Assembly (NCBI GenBank): GCA_000703065.1
Contig: JNLK01000001.1
Location: 1,240,001-1,304,000 of the forward strand
Source of the DNA: Lachnospiraceae bacterium AC2029
Lineage (GTDB): Bacteria > Bacillota > Clostridia > Lachnospirales > Lachnospiraceae
Direction of reading: 5' to 3'
DNA: 64,000 nucleotides
In this document: positions 8,459 through 64,000 of the stretch, one piece after another
Numbering within the stretch: position 1 is the first letter of the stretch
Layout of the letters: the number at the start of each line of letters is the position of its first letter
The notes under the pieces: model-generated
Databases searched by the model: none
The model's input: only the letters and a program-made list of their open reading frames with translations
Told to the model about the DNA's origin: nothing
Position numbers and translations under genes: made by a program

Positions 8459-9892
8459 CTAGTATGCACGTCCGAAGTATACCATCTTCTTCGCTTCCCT
8501 GCCGCAATATACACAAGTGTCCGCAACATGCTCCTGTGCAAAGGGCATGCAGCGTGCGGTAGCTCCGGTCTCTTCCTTGATGGCGTCCTCGCAGGCACGG
8601 TCTCCGCACCACATTGCCTTGATGAAGCCGGGCTTTGACTCGATGGTTTCCTTGAACTCATCGTAGCTTGTCACGGTATAGGTATGAGCATCTCTGTGTG
8701 CTCTTGCCTTCTCCAGCATATCCTTCTGGATCTGCTCCAGCAGCTGCGGGATCAGGGTCTCCAGTGCATCCAGCTTTACGGTCTGCTTCTCACCGTTATC
8801 TCTCCGAACCACAACCGCTTCGCCGTTCTCCAGATCCCGGGGGCCAACCTCGATACGTACGGGGATCCCACGCATTTCCTGCTCCGCGAACTTGAATCCG
8901 GGAGACTTGTCGGTCTTGTCCACCTTTACCCGCGCAACTCCGGACAGCTTCTCCTGAAGGGCATCGGCAGCCTCCAGAACACCTTCCTTCTTCTGCTGGA
9001 TCGGAACGATCATTACCTGGGTCGGAGCCACCTTCGGAGGAAGCACCAGACCGTTATTGTCACCGTGAACCATGATCACCGCACCGATCAGACGGGTGGT
9101 CACACCCCAGCTGGTCTGGTGAACATATTTCAGGGTATTGTCCTTATCTGTATACTGCACGCCGAAGGCCTTCGCGAAGCCGTCACCGAAGTTATGGCTG
9201 GTTCCGGACTGCAGTGCCTTTCCGTCATGCATCAGTGCCTCGATGGTATAGGTCGCAACCGCACCGGCGAACTTCTCCTTCTCGGTCTTCTGTCCGCGGA
9301 TCATGGGGATCGCAAGAACATCCTCACAGAAGTCCGCATATACATTCAGCATCTGCTCGGTACGTGCCTCTGCCTCCTCGGCCGTGGCATGTGCCGTATG
9401 GCCTTCCTGCCACAGGAACTCTCTGGAGCGGAGGAAGGGACGTGTCTCCTTCTCCCAGCGAACTACGGAGCACCACTGATTATATACCTTCGGCAGATCA
9501 CGATAGGATGTGATGTCCTTCTGGTAGAAATCACAGAAGAGGGTCTCGGAGGTAGGACGTACGCACATCCGCTCCTGCAGCTTGGAGGTTCCGCCGTGGG
9601 TCACCCATGCAACCTCGGGAGCAAAGCCCTCTACATGATCCTTCTCCTTCTCGAGAAGACTCTCCGGGATCATCAGCGGAAGATATACATTTTCCACGCC
9701 GGTCGCCTTGAACCGGGCATCCAGCTGACTCTGGATCAGTTCCCAGATCGCATAGCCTGCCGGTTTCAGGACCATGAAGCCCTTAACACTGGTGTAGCCG
9801 GTCAGGTCCGCCTTCAGTACCACATCCGTATACCACTGCGCGAAGTCCTCCTCCATGGAGGTGATCGCTTCTACCTTCTTATCGTTTGCCAT
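8459..9892 (-). CDS. proS: Prolyl-tRNA synthetase, archaeal/eukaryotic-type
   Basis: Class II aminoacyl-tRNA synthetase charging tRNA-Pro. The 477 residues lack the bacterial-type editing insertion and follow the short archaeal-like form: motif 2 region VRPTSETL, the [14 protein letters not shown] signature, [15 protein letters not shown] and motif 3 region [11 protein letters not shown], then the anticodon-binding domain and a zinc-type C-terminal part ([10 protein letters not shown] ... CVYCGREA). GAGAGGT precedes the ATG. It lies 44 bases after the pseudouridine synthase gene, so there is no room for a T-box leader directly upstream. Confidence 0.95.
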
Positions 9893-9935
9893 TTTTAATA
9901 CCTCTCGTACTAATTCTTATTTCATTTCGACGGTC

Positions 9936-10718
9936 CTACCAGTCAGGATCCATGGCGTCCAGCAGTTCAAATGCCGCGCCCTCCGGTTCCCGGTGAAGGA
10001 ACACTTCTTCTCCCGTATAGGGGTGGGCAAATGTGATCCTGGTACTGTACAGCCCGATCTCCGATGCGTGCTTCTTACCACGTCCGCCTTTACCGCCCTG
10101 CTTTCCGGAATGCTTTCCGTCATTCCCCGGCTTTCCGGAATTCTTTCCCTTGCTTTCCTTCGCTCCGGGACCGTACTTCATGTCGCCCCAGATGGGATAG
10201 CCCGCATGGGACAGCTGACACCGTATCTGATGATGCCGTCCGGTCAGCAGATGGACCAGCAGGTAGGTAAATGTACCCTCGTCCGTATCGATGATATCCA
10301 GAACCTCGTAGGAAAGCTGCGCCTTCTTGGCCCCCTTCGTTCCCTCCGGAACGATACGGGACACATTTTCCTTTTTATCAAAGAGAAGCCAGTCCGTCAA
10401 AGTTCCCTCATCCTCCGGAACCTCTCCCCGGACTACCGCCTGATAACTCTTCTCGATCTTATGATCCTGCAGAAGATCTGACAGCTTCGCGGCTGCTTCC
10501 TCCGTCTTTGCAAAGAGCATGATCCCGGATACCGGCCGGTCCAGCCGGTTGATCACCGCAAGATAAGGCTCCCCGTCCGTGTCTCCCCGGTCGAAGATCT
10601 CATTCTTCACGATGCTGATCATGTCCTCCCGGTTGGAGTGGTCCGCCTGGGCGGGCACGCCATAGGGCTTGACGACAGCCATCATATATTCATCTTCGTA
10701 TACTATATCAAGCTTCAT
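9936..10718 (-). CDS. RluA-family RNA pseudouridine synthase
   Basis: Isomerises a uridine in rRNA or tRNA; the target cannot be told. Visible motifs are the catalytic-Asp loop NRLDRPVSGIM (Asn replaces the more usual His before RLD) and LLTGRHHQIRCQLSHAGYPIWGDMKYG. After this lies an unusual Gly/Lys-rich low-complexity insertion of about 30 residues before the final strands. The ATG at 10716-10718 (after GAGAGGT) is preferred over an in-frame TTG 4 codons upstream. It precedes proS by 44 bases, probably in one transcript. No N-terminal S4 domain is present. Confidence 0.88.
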   Translation of the reverse strand: MKLDIVYEDEYMMAVVKPYGVPAQADHSNREDMISIVKNEIFDRGDTDGEPYLAVINRLDRPVSGIMLFAKTEEAAAKLSDLLQDHKIEKSYQAVVRGEVPEDEGTLTDWLLFDKKENVSRIVPEGTKGAKKAQLSYEVLDIIDTDEGTFTYLLVHLLTGRHHQIRCQLSHAGYPIWGDMKYGPGAKESKGKNSGKPGNDGKHSGKQGGKGGRGKKHASEIGLYSTRITFAHPYTGEEVFLHREPEGAAFELLDAMDPDW

Positions 10719-10748
10719 ATGACCTCTCAAACACGTTTCTTCCGGGGT

Positions 10749-10831
10749 AAGATCCTTCGCGCTGTGCGCTCAGGATGACATGCATATCATCCGATCCTGT
10801 CATTCTGACGAACGCAGTGAGGAAGAATCTT
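10749..10831. repeat. Inverted pair of the dispersed GATTCTTC/CAGAATGAC element
   Basis: Unit A (10749-10780) runs AAGATCCTTC ... CAGGATGACA; unit B (10798-10831) is the same kind of unit reversed, TGTCATTCTGA ... GAAGAATCTT. They are separated by 17 bases, so the pair can form one long hairpin. A further half unit (CGGGATGACGG) follows near 10855-10868. This fills the gap between the aminotransferase and pseudouridine synthase genes. Confidence 0.75.
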
Positions 10832-10868
10832 CCCATCCATCTATGTCCTGTGCGCCCGGGATGACGGA

Positions 10869-12152
10869 TCACTCAGCCAGCAGCTTCTCGGCGCTGACCA
10901 GCTTCACACAAAGAGTGAAGAGCTCTGCAGCCACCTTCAGATCCTCCAGGGTCGGAAGGGTGGGTGCCACACGGATGTTGGAATCCCGCGGGTCCCGTCC
11001 GTAGGGCCAGGTTGCTCCTGCGCCGGTCATGGTGACTCCTGCCTTCTTGGCACGGGATACGATCTCCTTTGCACAGCCCGGAAGAGAATCAAAGCTGATG
11101 AAGTAGCCTCCCTTCGGCTTGGTCCACTCGCCGATCTCCAGACCGCCCAGCTCACGCTCGAAGATCTCCTCGACCGCTTCGAATTTGGGGCGGATGATGT
11201 CCGCATGCTTCCGCATATGCTCGGTCATACCGTGGATGTCTCCGAAGAAACGTACATGACGCAGCTGATTTACCTTATCATGACCGATGGTCTGGTTCTT
11301 CATCTGCTTCATGATATCCTCCAGGTTGTTGGGCGATGTTGCAAGTGCTGCAATACCGCTGCCCGGGAAGGTGATCTTCGAAGTCGATGCAAATTTATAT
11401 ACCAGATCCGGATTGCCTGCTCTCTTGCACTCGGCAAGGATCTCGATCAGATAGTCCTGATCGTCGTCATACAGGTGATGGATCCCGTATGCGTTATCCC
11501 AGAAGATACGGAAATCCTTGGCAGCCGGCTTCAGCCGTGCGAAGCGGCGAACCGTCTCATCCGAATAGGAATAGCCCTGAGGATTGGAGTACTTCGGTAC
11601 ACACCAGATACCCTTGATGGTCTCATCCTCGGATACAAATTGCTCCACCGCATCCATATCCGGTCCTGTCGGAGTCATGGCAACCGGGATCATCTCGATC
11701 CCGAAATACTCGGTGATGGCAAAATGCCGGTCATATCCGGGAACCGGGCAGAGGAACTTCACCTTGTCCAGCTTGCACCAGGGGGTGTTGCCCAGGATAC
11801 CGTGTGTCATGGCCCTTGAAACCGTGTCATACATCACATTCAGCGACGAATTGCCGTAGATGATGATGTTATCCGGATTATTCTCCATCATGTCTCCCAG
11901 AAGCACCTTTGCCTCATGGATACCTGTCAGCACACCGTAATTCCTGCAATCCGTGCCGTCCTCACAGGAAAGATCCACACTCGAATTCAGTGCATCCATC
12001 ATTCCCATGGAGAGATCCAGCTGCTCACGGCACGGCTTTCCGCGGCTCATATCCAGCGCCAGGTCCATTTCCTGGAATTTGCGGTACTGAGCCTTCAGTC
12101 CGTCCAGCTCTTCCTTCAGTTCTTCCTTCGACATTTCCTTATATGACTTCAT
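10869..12152 (-). CDS. Class Ic aspartate aminotransferase-like PLP enzyme
   Basis: Transaminase of fold type I, 427 aa. The PLP-lysine lies in FASTSKITFPGSG; upstream WDNAYGIHHLY holds the PLP-ring Asp/Tyr, and the terminal SNIRVAPT holds the substrate-carboxylate Arg. The N-terminal LDMSRGKP replaces the usual IGxP loop, which together with CPVPGYDRHF marks the divergent aspartate aminotransferase subgroup Ic (Pfam Asp_aminotransf type). Oxaloacetate/aspartate exchange is the likely reaction, known from family members. The ATG at 12150-12152 lies 8 bases after GAGGAG. A promoter is predicted about 50 bases upstream. Confidence 0.85.
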   Translation of the reverse strand: MKSYKEMSKEELKEELDGLKAQYRKFQEMDLALDMSRGKPCREQLDLSMGMMDALNSSVDLSCEDGTDCRNYGVLTGIHEAKVLLGDMMENNPDNIIIYGNSSLNVMYDTVSRAMTHGILGNTPWCKLDKVKFLCPVPGYDRHFAITEYFGIEMIPVAMTPTGPDMDAVEQFVSEDETIKGIWCVPKYSNPQGYSYSDETVRRFARLKPAAKDFRIFWDNAYGIHHLYDDDQDYLIEILAECKRAGNPDLVYKFASTSKITFPGSGIAALATSPNNLEDIMKQMKNQTIGHDKVNQLRHVRFFGDIHGMTEHMRKHADIIRPKFEAVEEIFERELGGLEIGEWTKPKGGYFISFDSLPGCAKEIVSRAKKAGVTMTGAGATWPYGRDPRDSNIRVAPTLPTLEDLKVAAELFTLCVKLVSAEKLLAE

Positions 12153-59604: not shown

Positions 59605-60594
59605 TTATTTCTCGTCGTCGATATATTCCACATATTTACCGGTTCCGATAGCGACCGCCGAAAGCGGATCCTCCGCCGTCATGGTGGTGATGCCGGTCTT
59701 CTCCTCGATCAGCTGCTCCAGCCCGTGGAGAAGAGCTCCTCCGCCCGTCAGCACGATACCACGGTCGGCAATATCCGCTGCCAGCTCCGGCGGGGTACGC
59801 TCCATGACCGCATGAACGGCTTCCACGATCTGACCGGTAGGCTCACGAAGCGCCTCTTCCGTCTCATCCGAGGTGATCATGACCGTCTTCGGAAGTCCTG
59901 TCACCAGGTTTCTTCCGCTCACATCCATGGAAATGTTCTCCGGACGCTTATAGCATGTACCTACATTTATCTTCACTTCCTCTGCCGTCCGGTCACCGAT
60001 CAGCAGATTATGCCGCTTGCGGATATACCGGATGATGGCGTCATCGAAATCATCTCCCGCCACCTTGATGGACTGGCTGACTACCGCTCCGCGCATGGAG
60101 ATCACGGCAATATCCGTAGTTCCTCCGCCGATATCCACCACCATATTTCCTACAGGCCGAACGATGTCGATCCCTGCTCCGATGGCTGCGGCGATGGGTT
60201 CCTCAATGATGGTAACATCACGGGCTCCCGCATTATAGGTGGCCTCTTCCACGGCACGTTTCTCAACCTCGGTCACACCCGACGGAACACAGACACAGAT
60301 CCGGGGACGACGTCCGAAGAAATTCCGGCCAACCGCCTTACGGATGAAATACTTCAACATTTTCTCCGTTGTAGTGTAATCCGAAATGACTCCGTGACGA
60401 AGAGGTCGGATCGCGATGATATTTCCGGGAGTACGTCCCAGCATGAGCCGGGCCTCCTCACCAATCTCCACGATCTTCTCAAGGTCCTTATCATATGCCA
60501 CTACGGAAGGCTCACGGAGCACGACTCCCCTTCCCTTCACGTAGACCAGTATACTTGCAGTACCCAGATCGATACCGATATCTGCACTTGCCAT
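59605..60594 (-). CDS. mreB: Rod-shape determining protein MreB/Mbl
   Basis: Bacterial actin homologue, 329 aa, forming membrane filaments that direct wall synthesis. IGIDLGTASILVYVKGRGVVL, IRPLRHGVISDY, the phosphate-2 loop VVDIGGGTTDIAVIS and the adenosine motif IVLTGGGALLHGLEQLI are typical. AGGAGG lies 5 bases before the ATG. The gene is not next to mreC/mreD, so it may be the Mbl-like paralogue. Confidence 0.95.
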   Translation of the reverse strand: MASADIGIDLGTASILVYVKGRGVVLREPSVVAYDKDLEKIVEIGEEARLMLGRTPGNIIAIRPLRHGVISDYTTTEKMLKYFIRKAVGRNFFGRRPRICVCVPSGVTEVEKRAVEEATYNAGARDVTIIEEPIAAAIGAGIDIVRPVGNMVVDIGGGTTDIAVISMRGAVVSQSIKVAGDDFDDAIIRYIRKRHNLLIGDRTAEEVKINVGTCYKRPENISMDVSGRNLVTGLPKTVMITSDETEEALREPTGQIVEAVHAVMERTPPELAADIADRGIVLTGGGALLHGLEQLIEEKTGITTMTAEDPLSAVAIGTGKYVEYIDDEK

Positions 60595-60627: not shown

Positions 60628-62367
60628 CTAGTCCTGAGCGATCCTGAGCAGGACTGCGGTGGCAGGCCTCCCGTCGATCCATTCCATCGGGATCTCCGTC
60701 ACATCATAGATGCCACCCAATTCATTGATATATCTTCGCCAGGTTCTTTTACCCTGTTTCTGCGGCGCCTCGAGCACGGTACTCGAGTAGCTCTCATAGT
60801 CTTCCTTTCCCTCCGGGATCATCCTGCGGGAATCCTGTCCCACGAAGTCCGTTCCCAACTGCCGGTTCAGCGTATCATTTGAAAAGAGGACTCTTCCGGA
60901 TTCCGCCTCCTTGATAAACACCTTGATCGTCAGCTGATTGAAGATCTCCAGGATCTCCCTGCCGGAGGTCTTTCTGGTACCAACACCTTCAATGTAGGTA
61001 AGATTCTCGCCGATCATCTTTCCCACCAGTTTGGCAAAATGAATCTCCGATTCACTCCAGATTCTTTCCCTTCTTGTCTCCAGGAAGATCACTCTTCCCA
61101 TGCCCTCGTCAGTGATACGCACCGGCATGATCATTGCCGCCCGTACAAATCCCTGGAACGCACTTACGCGGATCCGGTTGGTCATATTCTTCTGATCGAT
61201 CACAAAACCGTCAGAATAGAACTGCTGCCGTTCTGACTCGTTAAATGCATCAAAATTGATCTCATGCGGTGCATCACCGGTAACGCTGTAATATCCTTCC
61301 ATCTTATCGGCAGAATCAGCTCCACCGGTCTTCCGGGTCAGAAATACATATTCAACATCCAGCACTCTGGCAGCTTCCCGGAGGATGGTCGTAAGACCGC
61401 CGTTGGCATCCTTTCTGATCTGATCGTTCAGCTCCGAAAGTACCTGCAACTGTGTCCGTTCAAACTCCAGCTGTTTCTCCAGTTCCTTCTCCCTGCTGCT
61501 TCGCCGGCCGGCCATGATGGATCTCTGAATATATTCGGAGATCAGCTCTCCGAGACGGTACTGCTCACGGGAAGCGATCCTTAATGTGGCAGTCTGAGAC
61601 TTGTCATGGGCGCAGAGCATCCAGGTTGCAAGGTGTACTCCGCTCACCATAATGGGGACGGCCGAAACCCGGCTGTCCGGATTTCCGTCATTCAGCTCCA
61701 TATAGACAGATTCTTCCTGTATCAGGACAGAATGCTTCAATGCATTAAAAAGCTCCAGGTTCTCCGGGCGCTCAAACATATCATAATAATAACCAAGATA
61801 TGCTTCCGGTCCTACCGGCGGAAAGAGAGAATGTCCGTCCTGATCCACAACGGTGGAGTAAAGTCCGTAGGCCCTCGCAAAAAACCCGAAGAATTCCCCC
61901 AGCGTATCATCCGCCAGAACATCCTTCGTGATCAGGCGCCCGCCTGCTTCCTTCCCCCGTACGGTACCGGTCTGTGCATTCTCCACAGGAGCCGCGATCT
62001 CCTGGAAGATATACTCGATCATATAATAATCCGCGTCATAGTCGATATACTCGGAACGTACATCCACATCCCGGATAACCCCATCATCTCCTGCCAGACG
62101 TACACGGTAGGTGAAGCTGGACTTTGTCTCGGATGCAATGCTGACCGCATCGATAAATCCGTTCCTGTCCTCCGGATGGATATAATCCTTCGGAAGACGG
62201 AACCCGCCCTTCAAACTTGCCAGATTCATCCCGAGCTGCTGTACATTTTCGGAAATGTATTCCAGCTTTGTCCGGGTCACCGGCTCATCCTTTGTGTATT
62301 TCATTACAACCACGCAGCTTTTGGTCATTTCAAGTGCACGCACAAGATAATCCTTGATCCGATCCAA
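60628..62367 (-). CDS. PAS/PocR-like/GAF sensor protein without a known output domain
   Basis: 579 aa, soluble. An N-terminal PAS-like unit (about 15-130; YIHPEDRNGFIDA and FTYRVRLAGDDG), a middle ~150-residue domain resembling PocR-type ligand-binding modules (FFGFFARAYGLYSTVVDQDG), a coiled linker (about 290-325), a GAF domain (about 325-465) and a C-terminal PAS-like unit (about 475-575; KVFIKEAESGRVLFSNDTLNRQ). No kinase, GGDEF or DNA-binding part follows. The start is a TTG, just after GGGGGTG. It lies 33 bases before mreB and after the DivIVA-like gene with a terminator between. Confidence 0.75.
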   Translation of the reverse strand: MDRIKDYLVRALEMTKSCVVVMKYTKDEPVTRTKLEYISENVQQLGMNLASLKGGFRLPKDYIHPEDRNGFIDAVSIASETKSSFTYRVRLAGDDGVIRDVDVRSEYIDYDADYYMIEYIFQEIAAPVENAQTGTVRGKEAGGRLITKDVLADDTLGEFFGFFARAYGLYSTVVDQDGHSLFPPVGPEAYLGYYYDMFERPENLELFNALKHSVLIQEESVYMELNDGNPDSRVSAVPIMVSGVHLATWMLCAHDKSQTATLRIASREQYRLGELISEYIQRSIMAGRRSSREKELEKQLEFERTQLQVLSELNDQIRKDANGGLTTILREAARVLDVEYVFLTRKTGGADSADKMEGYYSVTGDAPHEINFDAFNESERQQFYSDGFVIDQKNMTNRIRVSAFQGFVRAAMIMPVRITDEGMGRVIFLETRRERIWSESEIHFAKLVGKMIGENLTYIEGVGTRKTSGREILEIFNQLTIKVFIKEAESGRVLFSNDTLNRQLGTDFVGQDSRRMIPEGKEDYESYSSTVLEAPQKQGKRTWRRYINELGGIYDVTEIPMEWIDGRPATAVLLRIAQD

Positions 62368-62386
62368 GCCTTCACCCCCTTTAGAC

Positions 62387-62418
62387 CGAAAAGCAGGGAC
62401 AGCAATCCCTGCTTTTCG
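62387..62418 (-). terminator. Rho-independent terminator of the DivIVA-like gene
   Basis: CGAAAAGCAGGGA (62387-62399) and TCCCTGCTTTTCG (62406-62418) pair perfectly around 6 bases; T residues lie in the stem end on the minus strand. Confidence 0.8.
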
Positions 62419-62452
62419 TCCTGTGTGATTCGTATGCCTTCCGGTCCGCCTA

Positions 62453-63334
62453 TCAGTTCAGATCGCCGAAGGCTCCGTCTGTCATTTCCTTTGTCTTCTT
62501 TACGGAAGCAACCACCTGATCTACCGACTCCTGCAGCTGAGATACGAACTCGCTGATGCTCTCGCACTCGCGCTTCACCTGCGTACGTGTCATATGAACC
62601 TCATCTCTGGTCTTCTGCTTCAGTTCCTCGCATGCAGCCTCTGTTTCAGACTTCATCTTCTCACAGTCGGCCTCTGTGGAGATGCGAAGATTCTCACAGT
62701 CAGTTTCTGTCGTGTTGCGAAGATTCTCACAGTAGGTCTCGGTGTTGATCTTCTGATTAGCACAGTCATAACTGGTTGTGGATCTCTGACGTTCGCACTC
62801 TTCCTCTGTGGAAGCCCTCAGCGCCCTGCAGCTATCAGCCGTCTGCTCGGACAGCCGTGCACAGTCAGCCTCAGTTGTGGACTTCAGTTCGTCACACTGG
62901 CGGCGTGTCTCTTCCATCATCTTCTCAAGCTCTGCAGCTACCTCTGCACGCTTGGACTCACATTCATTTTCCGTATCACGTACCAGGCGGTCTGCACGCA
63001 TCTGCGCATCCAGCGCAACCTTGCTGACGGACTCGTACTTAGCCCTGTAGTCATCCTCATTCGCCTGATAATCGGCAAGCTTGGCACGGAGTGTATCCAG
63101 TTCCTCCTGAAGATCGGCATTCGCATCCTTCAGCTTATCCACGGTATCCTTGGACTCACTCATATTCACCTCACGCATCTTGCGGAGGCTGTCAACAGTC
63201 TCACCCAGCTTTACTGTTGTCTCCTTCAGCTGAGAGATCTGCTTCTCATAATCCTGCTGCATCTCTGTGATATAGGTCTCAACTGCCTTCTTATCATATC
63301 CGCCGAATGACACTGTTTTTAATTCAAAATCCAT
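62453..63334 (-). CDS. DivIVA-like coiled-coil protein with an 11-residue cysteine ladder
   Basis: 293 aa. The N-terminus (MDFELKTVSFGGYDKKAVETYI) follows the DivIVA/GpsB plan of a membrane-binding loop before a coiled coil. Residues about 25-280 are helical. All 11 cysteines fall at 11-residue phase: 125, 147, 158, 169, 180, 191, 202, 213, 224, 235 and 257. Each hendecad reads roughly T-E-x-x-C-E-x-L-R-x-x. The DNA shows the matching 33-bp periodicity. The ATG 63332-63334 has AGGGG 7 bases before it. Likely a cytoskeletal or polar scaffold near MreB; the cysteine ladder has no function known to me. Confidence 0.85.
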   Translation of the reverse strand: MDFELKTVSFGGYDKKAVETYITEMQQDYEKQISQLKETTVKLGETVDSLRKMREVNMSESKDTVDKLKDANADLQEELDTLRAKLADYQANEDDYRAKYESVSKVALDAQMRADRLVRDTENECESKRAEVAAELEKMMEETRRQCDELKSTTEADCARLSEQTADSCRALRASTEEECERQRSTTSYDCANQKINTETYCENLRNTTETDCENLRISTEADCEKMKSETEAACEELKQKTRDEVHMTRTQVKRECESISEFVSQLQESVDQVVASVKKTKEMTDGAFGDLN

Positions 63335-63410
63335 GGTAAATCCCCTTTCTCGCACTGATCTTGGATGGTATTTACATTTCTGTTCCAAACGGTAACCCTA
63401 TGCTCCAAAA

Positions 63411-63486: not shown

Positions 63487-63515
63487 TTGTGAAAGCAGTC
63501 CGAATATGATACAAT
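63487..63515 (+). promoter_or_regulatory. Promoter of the right-edge lipoprotein gene
   Basis: TTGTGA (63487-63492), 17 bases, TACAAT (63510-63515), about 55 bases before the start. Confidence 0.65.
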
Positions 63516-63570
63516 GCCCTTTGAGAAACGGCCGGCCCTGTTCTGTCGGCCCGCAAAGAAAGGCTTTCAC

Positions 63571-64000
63571 ATGAAGAAGAAAATATGCGGCTTCCTTCTG
63601 TTGCTTTGCATGATGGTCGGACTTCTGACCGGCTGCGGCAACAAGGAAAGCCAGTTCCAAAGCTATATCCAGTCTCTCATCACGGCCAATTACCTCGGCA
63701 CCTCGGATGAGTACATCAAGACCACCGGCGTCAATCAGGCGGACGCAGAGGCTCTCTACCTTCAGAACGCCACCCGCCTGGCGAACAACCTGAACGCATA
63801 CTACGGCCTTGACATCACCAATGACACGGAAATGGGGCCCCGGCTGATCGAGGTATCCAAGCTGATCTACAGCAAGATCCGCTATGAGGTCTCACCCACC
63901 AAGATGGTCAACGGCATCTACTACGTGGACATCACCATCCATCCCATCAACATTCTGAATGATACCCATGACAAGGTGGTGGCATATGTCCATGAATTCA
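63571..64000 (+). CDS. Lipoprotein, N-terminal part (runs off the right edge)
   Basis: The ATG at 63571 is 7 bases after AAAGG. The signal MKKKICGFLLLLCMM leads to LLTGC, a lipobox, then GNKESQFQSYIQSLITANYLG. The visible mature part (about 120 residues) is helical then beta-prone (ISKLIYSKIRYEV-like and GIYYVDITIHP) and resembles the DUF5105-type small lipoproteins of Clostridia, but this match is tentative. No stop is reached in the window. Confidence 0.85.
   Translation, partial: MKKKICGFLLLLCMMVGLLTGCGNKESQFQSYIQSLITANYLGTSDEYIKTTGVNQADAEALYLQNATRLANNLNAYYGLDITNDTEMGPRLIEVSKLIYSKIRYEVSPTKMVNGIYYVDITIHPINILNDTHDKVVAYVHEF

Follow-up and report, generated by a model that had tools for sequence, protein, structure and literature searches.

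A DivIVA-related hendecad protein with a conserved cysteine ladder, encoded next to PAS/GAF and MreB genes in Lachnospiraceae

Why would a coiled-coil protein of an anaerobic bacterium carry a cysteine at the same position of one 11-residue repeat after another, and would the thiols of such a protein do anything beyond filling space? The question is raised by a single gene in the window analyzed here, a stretch of 64,000 nucleotides from Lachnospiraceae bacterium AC2029. The gene is read from the minus strand, with its ATG at 63334 and its stop at 62453-62455, and an AAAGGGG stretch was noticed by eye just 5' of the start (within 63340-63349). The gene and its parts are as follows.

62453..63334, minus strand: gene of a DivIVA-related coiled-coil protein with a cysteine ladder, 293 aa (open frame and translation; relatives with the same start region)
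63278..63307, minus strand: DivIVA-like motif region FGGYDKKAVE, residues 10-19 (aligned with relatives)
62564..62962, minus strand: cysteine hendecad ladder, residues 125-257, 13 repeat slots with 11 cysteines in one phase and two slots without cysteine
62456..62563, minus strand: C-terminal segment past the last ladder cysteine, with Val278 where many relatives have an extra cysteine

According to the original prediction, all 11 cysteines of the protein lie in one phase of an 11-residue repeat, with two gaps of 22, and the translation bears this out: the cysteines are residues 125, 147, 158, 169, 180, 191, 202, 213, 224, 235 and 257, separated by 22 residues, then eight times by 11, and again by 22. 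When 11 cysteines were placed at random on 293 residues, none of 100,000 placements had all 11 in phase at period 11, and the best had seven. Over all periods from 3 to 30, up to ten of the 11 shared a phase (20,000 placements), because very short periods are easily satisfied; period 11 is the meaningful test of the cysteine phase.

The ladder protein was found in 36 of 61 genomes in a protein search, all of them from the window's genus (37 genomes of the genus were searched), and a scan of GTDB species genomes gave 115 relatives, 80 of which were kept. The kept relatives are assigned to Lachnospiraceae, Eubacterium (including E. ruminantium), Clostridium sp. and unclassified Clostridia, Clostridiales or Eubacteriales, and profile searches revealed full-length ladder proteins in four further Lachnospiraceae genera (genomes G064, G457, G484 and G531); the carriers are a group of anaerobic gut bacteria. 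Two overlapping searches together provided 110 loci, from which 109 proteins were read (L226 was left out), corresponding to 79 distinct sequences. These 79 proteins contain 824 cysteines, 787 of them in the ladder phase, with 8 to 13 ladder cysteines per protein. Between the first and the last ladder cysteine, the ladder slot is occupied by cysteine in 787 of 944 cases and otherwise by threonine (51), alanine (45), valine (36), leucine (14), methionine (7), serine (3) or isoleucine (1). Residues that lie one base change from cysteine (Ser, Arg, Tyr, Phe, Gly, Trp) account for only three of the 944, all serine; that serine should be so close in the code and yet almost absent speaks for selection on cysteine. 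A similar distribution was seen among 27 representatives of less than 72% identity (cysteine 277 of 333, serine 2). Both cysteine codons are in use in the ladder (TGT 451, TGC 336), so the codons have drifted while the residue stayed. Moreover, the ladder spans 10 to 15 slots in these proteins, which means that the phase is retained while repeats come and go, as the proposed check on varying repeat number had asked. Very recent duplication, the other circumstance that had been named as able to explain the pattern away, is ruled out as the sole cause: within the window gene, the 13 units are on average 42% identical in DNA sequence, whereas units in the same position of relatives that share its layout (four distinct sequences from six loci) are 69-76% identical. 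The cysteines outside the ladder phase number 37 in the 79 relatives, and 31 of them stand exactly 21 residues, that is three heptads, past the last ladder cysteine; if the repeat turns heptad there, this site is again core position a.

With cysteine set as position a of the 11-mer, the same 944 repeats have leucine (490) or methionine (147) at d, 637 in total, and mostly threonine at h (729, followed by Val 94, Ala 67, Met 20 and Ile 13), while the other positions are mostly charged or polar, charges being frequent at b, e, i and k. In the available text of PMC9858780, a, d and h form the hendecad core, and the residue pointing to the axis is said to have to be small, with Ala as the foremost choice, unless the oligomer is of higher order. 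The less polar a, d and h positions, the polar remainder and the long helix that characterize a hendecad coiled coil were all found, in the sequence and in a single-chain AlphaFold2 prediction, which gives one unbroken helix over residues 15-288 (mean pLDDT 82.5, pTM 0.31). The hendecad coiled coil that had been predicted is thus upheld as a repeat pattern with cysteine at a core position and as a continuous predicted helix of the single chain. In a hand-made ideal hendecad model, the threonine at h faces the bundle axis, with the cysteine at a and the leucine at d lying 32.7 degrees to either side. Successive layers are 16.5 Angstrom apart, and residues 125-257 extend over 19.8 nm. In the ideal dimer, the Cb-Cb distance in layer a is 5.2-6.0 Angstrom, which exceeds that of a relaxed disulphide, and the axial threonine layer, at 2.8-3.8 Angstrom, is tight for threonine; given these distances, a plain dimer may be wrong. 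The ideal trimer or tetramer, with axial Cb-Cb distances of 4.8-5.8 Angstrom, fits threonine better than the dimer does.

Downstream of the ladder gene, on the same strand, the window contains the following features.

62383..62421, minus strand: strong hairpin between the ladder gene and the PAS/GAF gene (-26.3 kcal/mol, z -5.72; none of 200 shuffled sequences reached this stability)
60628..62367, minus strand: PAS/GAF-domain protein, conserved neighbour (PAS_3 30.1 bits, cut-off 25.6)
59605..60594, minus strand: MreB/Mbl actin homologue, conserved neighbour (MreB_Mbl 467 bits)

The adjacency to MreB and a PAS/GAF sensor, which had been noted for the window, holds across relatives: in all of the 80 named loci the PAS/GAF gene comes next after the ladder gene on the same strand, in 75 of them the MreB gene comes after that, and the five loci without MreB end inside or soon past the PAS/GAF match. 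The GAF match of the window's PAS/GAF protein falls below its cut-off (19.3 vs 22.4 bits). Beyond MreB, RecD2-like, ComF-like and Ddl-like genes (identities assigned by eye) are conserved as well. The hairpin has no clear T run and is absent from the terminator prediction list; it may end or attenuate the transcript. On its other side, the ladder gene adjoins a divergent gene with a lipoprotein-like start (63514-63999, plus strand, running off the window), which is matched, in one orientation or the other, at 68 of the 96 loci that were compared and gave no Pfam or NCBIfam match. MreB loci were additionally drawn regardless of the ladder, with an MreB match in 107 of 110 genomes. The upstream regions of 20 of them were taken, and 18 were left after setting aside two that end at contig ends (L465, L475). 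No DivIVA-like gene was seen upstream of MreB in these 18 other-genus loci (open reading frames of at least 120 aa, by eye), so the sample yielded no further ladder-free relatives. In an MreB tree of 78 rows, the 69 ladder loci are separated from the remaining rows by a single branch (support 98/91); hence, one gain or one loss suffices. The genome G512, whose gene at this locus has a weak ladder, is present in the tree as row L438, and row L249 of the same genome was left out; L438 is therefore wrongly labelled there as a locus lacking a DivIVA-like gene.

That the protein is DivIVA-like, as originally predicted, is supported through a relative rather than through the window protein alone. 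Against the Pfam DivIVA family (PF05103, gathering cut-off 28 bits) the window protein scores 19.9 bits, and against the GpsB family NF010725 of NCBIfam 20.1 bits, where the cut-off is 91. Two syntenic relatives without a full ladder score 44.3 bits (L250, genome G380), which is above the Pfam DivIVA cut-off, and 23.9 bits (L249), which is below it. Since L250 passes, the ladder family looks DivIVA-derived by sequence even with the sub-threshold score of the window protein. The GGYD motif is present in 79 of 79 distinct relatives. The pattern GY[DN]xx[QE]V[DN], given in the available text of PMC9858780 as marking the DivIVA-like domain at the head of the coiled coil, is found in its strict form in five of the 79 but not in the window protein, which reads GYDKKAVE there; when we loosened the pattern by a rule of our own, 78 of the 79 had it. 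Dimerization by way of the motif loop and the coiled coil is a further mark of the DivIVA-like domain. The family profile also aligns weakly, over positions of about 7-52, to the GpsB chains 9pv2, 8e2c and 8e2b and to DivIVA 2wuj (E 0.02-0.03).

The same two relatives bear on the thiols. L250 stands in the same place before PAS/GAF and MreB and reads C, S, S, S, S, S, S, R, Y, C, K, V, C at the ladder phase, with alanine at h in nine of 13 repeats, and the gene of G512 at the same locus (L249/L241) has only three cysteines in phase. Free replacement of cysteine with the repeats kept, which had been named as evidence that would speak against a special role, was not seen among the 79 distinct proteins, but in other genera one relative at this locus has serine in six successive repeats and another has only three in-phase cysteines. 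It follows that the locus can exist without stacked thiols and that the thiols are not needed everywhere; these ladder-poor relatives are the main evidence against a chemical role. Close to the C-terminus, both carry two cysteines separated by exactly 21 residues, and this pair may be the older thiol site.

Cysteine ladders were also found in proteins of other build. A profile of the ladder segment gave matches in 17 of 299 Lachnospiraceae genomes; two of these genomes, G460 and G576, have matching proteins (L382, L383) without a ladder. Matches from other searches of the family, in G490, G503 and G508, showed none either. What we call family 2 comprises proteins with an N-terminal AGxIAEAxLxLNGVFExAQ and a C-terminal WxxLSxRLExFYxAHxGL. 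Its ladder members (L242/L247, L245, two copies in L246, L377-L381, L386 and L387) have 3 to 19 cysteines in one phase, and a further member, L385, has 13 cysteines in two phases. Some members thus resemble the window protein in their hendecad ladders of Cys, Leu/Met/Lys and Thr/Ala but differ from it in their N- and C-terminal parts and in gene context, and many members have no ladder. With an N-terminus profile, which was built from ladder-bearing members and may lean to them, family 2 was detected in 27 of 220 genomes, with 35 matches at 30 loci. Of these loci, 29 were read (L405 was left out), and a ladder is present at five of the 29 (L389, L390, L395, L399, L416); some of the others have Ala-type hendecads (L402, L403, by eye) or no rod. 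In family 3 (TTLMGGFDKDDV, judged DivIVA-like by eye), a ladder is present in one member, L243/L248, which has seven cysteines in phase, whereas L234, L235, L428 and L430 have no ladder, L428 having Ser/Ala-type hendecads instead.

Two members of family 2 deserve a description of their own. The longest ladder, 19 cysteines in one hendecad phase, belongs to the 556-aa protein of G532 (L242/L247), the gene of which is partly masked in the record. In G570 (L246), two family-2 ladder genes are immediate neighbours of genes for type I signal peptidases, and a sortase gene and a gene for an LPXTG pilin-like protein lie in the same region; one would not expect a thiol rod to be linked with genes of surface pili.

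1252-1836, 1893-2711, 8493-9326, 9421-11010 and 15906-17418 of L246 (G570): signal peptidase/sortase/pilin region

At the threshold used, a search of 391 genomes of the class detected no ladder outside the window's own family (two of the 391 match, both inside it). A search of the order had profile matches in eight of 392 genomes. Of these, L232 was rejected as an out-of-frame artefact, L236, L234 and L235 have no ladder, and L233, which belongs to family 2 and comes from a different bacterial family within the order, has only a single pair of cysteines 11 residues apart. Within its own genome the window gene is the only match of the ladder profile at E 1e-5, and the weak or unrelated matches L365 and L432 have no ladder (a weak 232-aa frame was left out). 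No match of the ladder to plasmids and phages was obtained with tblastn at E 0.01. Scanning viral sequences for seven in-phase cysteines gave at least 119 stretches; among the 33 open frames listed, none resembled the ladder by eye, and they were set aside as leucine-rich repeats, low-complexity sequence and out-of-frame reads. A second viral scan, with Thr/Ala at h, gave at least 120 stretches in at least 49 open frames, and among the 40 listed only L312 looked both ladder-like and helical; this 969-aa frame of a viral contig has a five-cysteine 11-residue ladder and is possibly a coiled-coil phage protein. Judged by these sequence comparisons, the cysteine ladder appears to be a trait that recurs within a single bacterial family.

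What might such a ladder do? DivIVA-type dimers are parallel. By analogy with these dimers, as they appear in the available text of PMC9858780, we infer that the protein forms a coiled-coil rod with its thiols in the core. The reading that we favour, tentatively and with somewhat less than even confidence, is that of a DivIVA-derived rod scaffold linked to MreB, whose core thiols would serve as a thiol-dependent zipper, responding to oxidation in the first place. The protein would be a rod-shaped cytoplasmic scaffold that acts with the neighbouring MreB, and its hendecad core would be built from Cys at a, Leu/Met at d and Thr at h. Assuming a parallel oligomer in register with the core packed in this way, the chains would bring their thiols together in one layer after another, spaced roughly 16.5 Angstrom apart along some 20 nm of rod. 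On this reading it is most probably their chemistry as thiols that would count: as long as the cytoplasm of these anaerobes is reduced, they would pack the core. More speculatively, an oxidant or a thiophilic metal could cross-link the thiol layers and thereby lock the rod, and the locked rod might couple the redox or metal state to the MreB-linked scaffold, sensing and MreB contact being equally speculative.

In favour of the thiol zipper are the single phase of 787 of the 824 cysteines, the occupancy of the slot by cysteine in 787 of 944 cases, the mixed codons, the varying span, the off-phase cysteines three heptads past the ladder, the ladders in families 2 and 3 and the gene order, all directly observed. 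Against it are L250 and L249, the preponderance of T, A and V at the slots without cysteine, as for any small core residue, the minority position of ladders in family 2 and the Cb-Cb distances of the ideal dimer. We consider it rather unlikely, though worth stating, that the thiol-ladder coiled coil is a functional module which was adopted several times in different scaffolds of this anaerobe family and through which oxidation or metal would zip the rod and signal to an MreB-linked scaffold.

Nearly as likely as the thiol zipper, and in itself quite possible, is the explanation that cysteine is here a mere small, weakly polar core residue with chemically idle thiols, on which the lineage would have settled, together with threonine, because its cytoplasm is always reduced. 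The small axis-pointing residue, Ala above all, of hendecads in the available text of PMC9858780 agrees with this. Hendecads need a small core residue and similar rods often use Ala or Ser, which is what the six successive in-phase serines of L250, the Ala-type hendecads of family 2 and the Ser/Ala-type hendecads of family 3 display, and T, A and V are the usual replacements of the ladder cysteines. However, an idle small residue should mix freely with Ser and Ala, which were seen in only 3 and 45 of the 944 slots. Cysteine is generally a rare residue, and cysteine ladders nevertheless occur in three protein families.

An alternative chemical role, which we regard as unlikely, is that of a metal-thiolate rod, a trimer or tetramer in which Cys3 or Cys4 layers would bind zinc, copper, cadmium, arsenite or iron-sulphur clusters and which would act as a store, sink or sensor. 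Designed helical trimers do bind metals through cysteine layers, as described for a Ni(Cys)3 trimer in the available text of PMC10299331, and the axial threonine fits a trimer or tetramer better than a dimer, although this geometry comes from the hand-made ideal model. On the other hand, there is no recognised metal-handling gene among the typed conserved neighbours, and DivIVA-like N-termini are dimeric in the structures presented in the available text of PMC9858780. It is less likely still, indeed improbable, that the 11-mers form an amphipathic helix lying on the membrane in the manner of apolipoproteins rather than a coiled coil. Apolipoprotein is the best Pfam match (3.4e-6), and the family profile matches ApoA-I and ApoA-IV PDB chains, but the 27.3 bits obtained for PF01442 (Apolipoprotein A1/A4/E) compare with a cut-off of 90, the ladder proteins L245 and L248 give the same weak match, and the least polar face consists only of Cys, Leu/Met and Thr, with charges common at b, e, i and k. 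Very improbable, and largely refuted for the window gene, is the idea that unequal crossing over, by copying one Cys-bearing 33-base unit, left the ladder behind as a by-product: units 202 and 213, the closest pair, are 82% identical, and repeat numbers that differ between relatives mean that units were gained and lost, but the low identity within the gene and the best match of 10-12 of its 13 units to their own counterparts in the same-layout relatives (six loci, four distinct sequences) contradict it, while it may apply to the 19-cysteine L242 with its many similar units (by eye).

If the thiols of the favoured zipper react, these anaerobes would have, next to MreB, a scaffold under redox or metal control; if they are inert, it is a natural experiment on the tolerance of a hendecad core, with Cys, Ser and Ala versions at hand. 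In the titles and abstract openings of the open-licence papers listed by literature searches, no natural hendecad protein with a cysteine ladder is described, and the word cysteine is absent from the main text of PMC9858780.

Compared with known systems, the ladder protein shares with DivIVA and GpsB of Firmicutes the GGYD motif followed by a long coiled coil but differs in its cysteine-filled core, in scores below the Pfam and NCBIfam cut-offs and in the strict motif, which only five of the 79 relatives have. Its gene context differs as well: in the available text of PMC9858780, DivIVA is encoded near SepF, FtsZ, FtsA and YggT/YggS and GpsB near RecU, DnaD and PBP1A, whereas the ladder gene adjoins PAS/GAF and MreB. 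The actinobacterial hendecad scaffolds FilP and Scy likewise have a DivIVA-like N-terminus followed by hendecads, and the window protein matches the NCBIfam Scy model weakly (19 bits, cut-off 1040); yet these proteins, as characterized in the same available text, have Ala-rich cores, belong to Actinobacteria and lie in a different gene context. Hendecad rods of the DivIVA kind are thus known, with Ala-rich cores in the described cases, from which a cysteine-filled core differs. Designed three-stranded coiled coils with cysteine layers, as far as their descriptions were available, show the likeness of metal-binding thiol layers inside a helical bundle, but they are synthetic. The cysteine core of the ladder proteins, kept across deep divergence and present in other scaffolds, is a natural counterpart of these designs, which are heptad-based and have one or two thiol layers, not ten.
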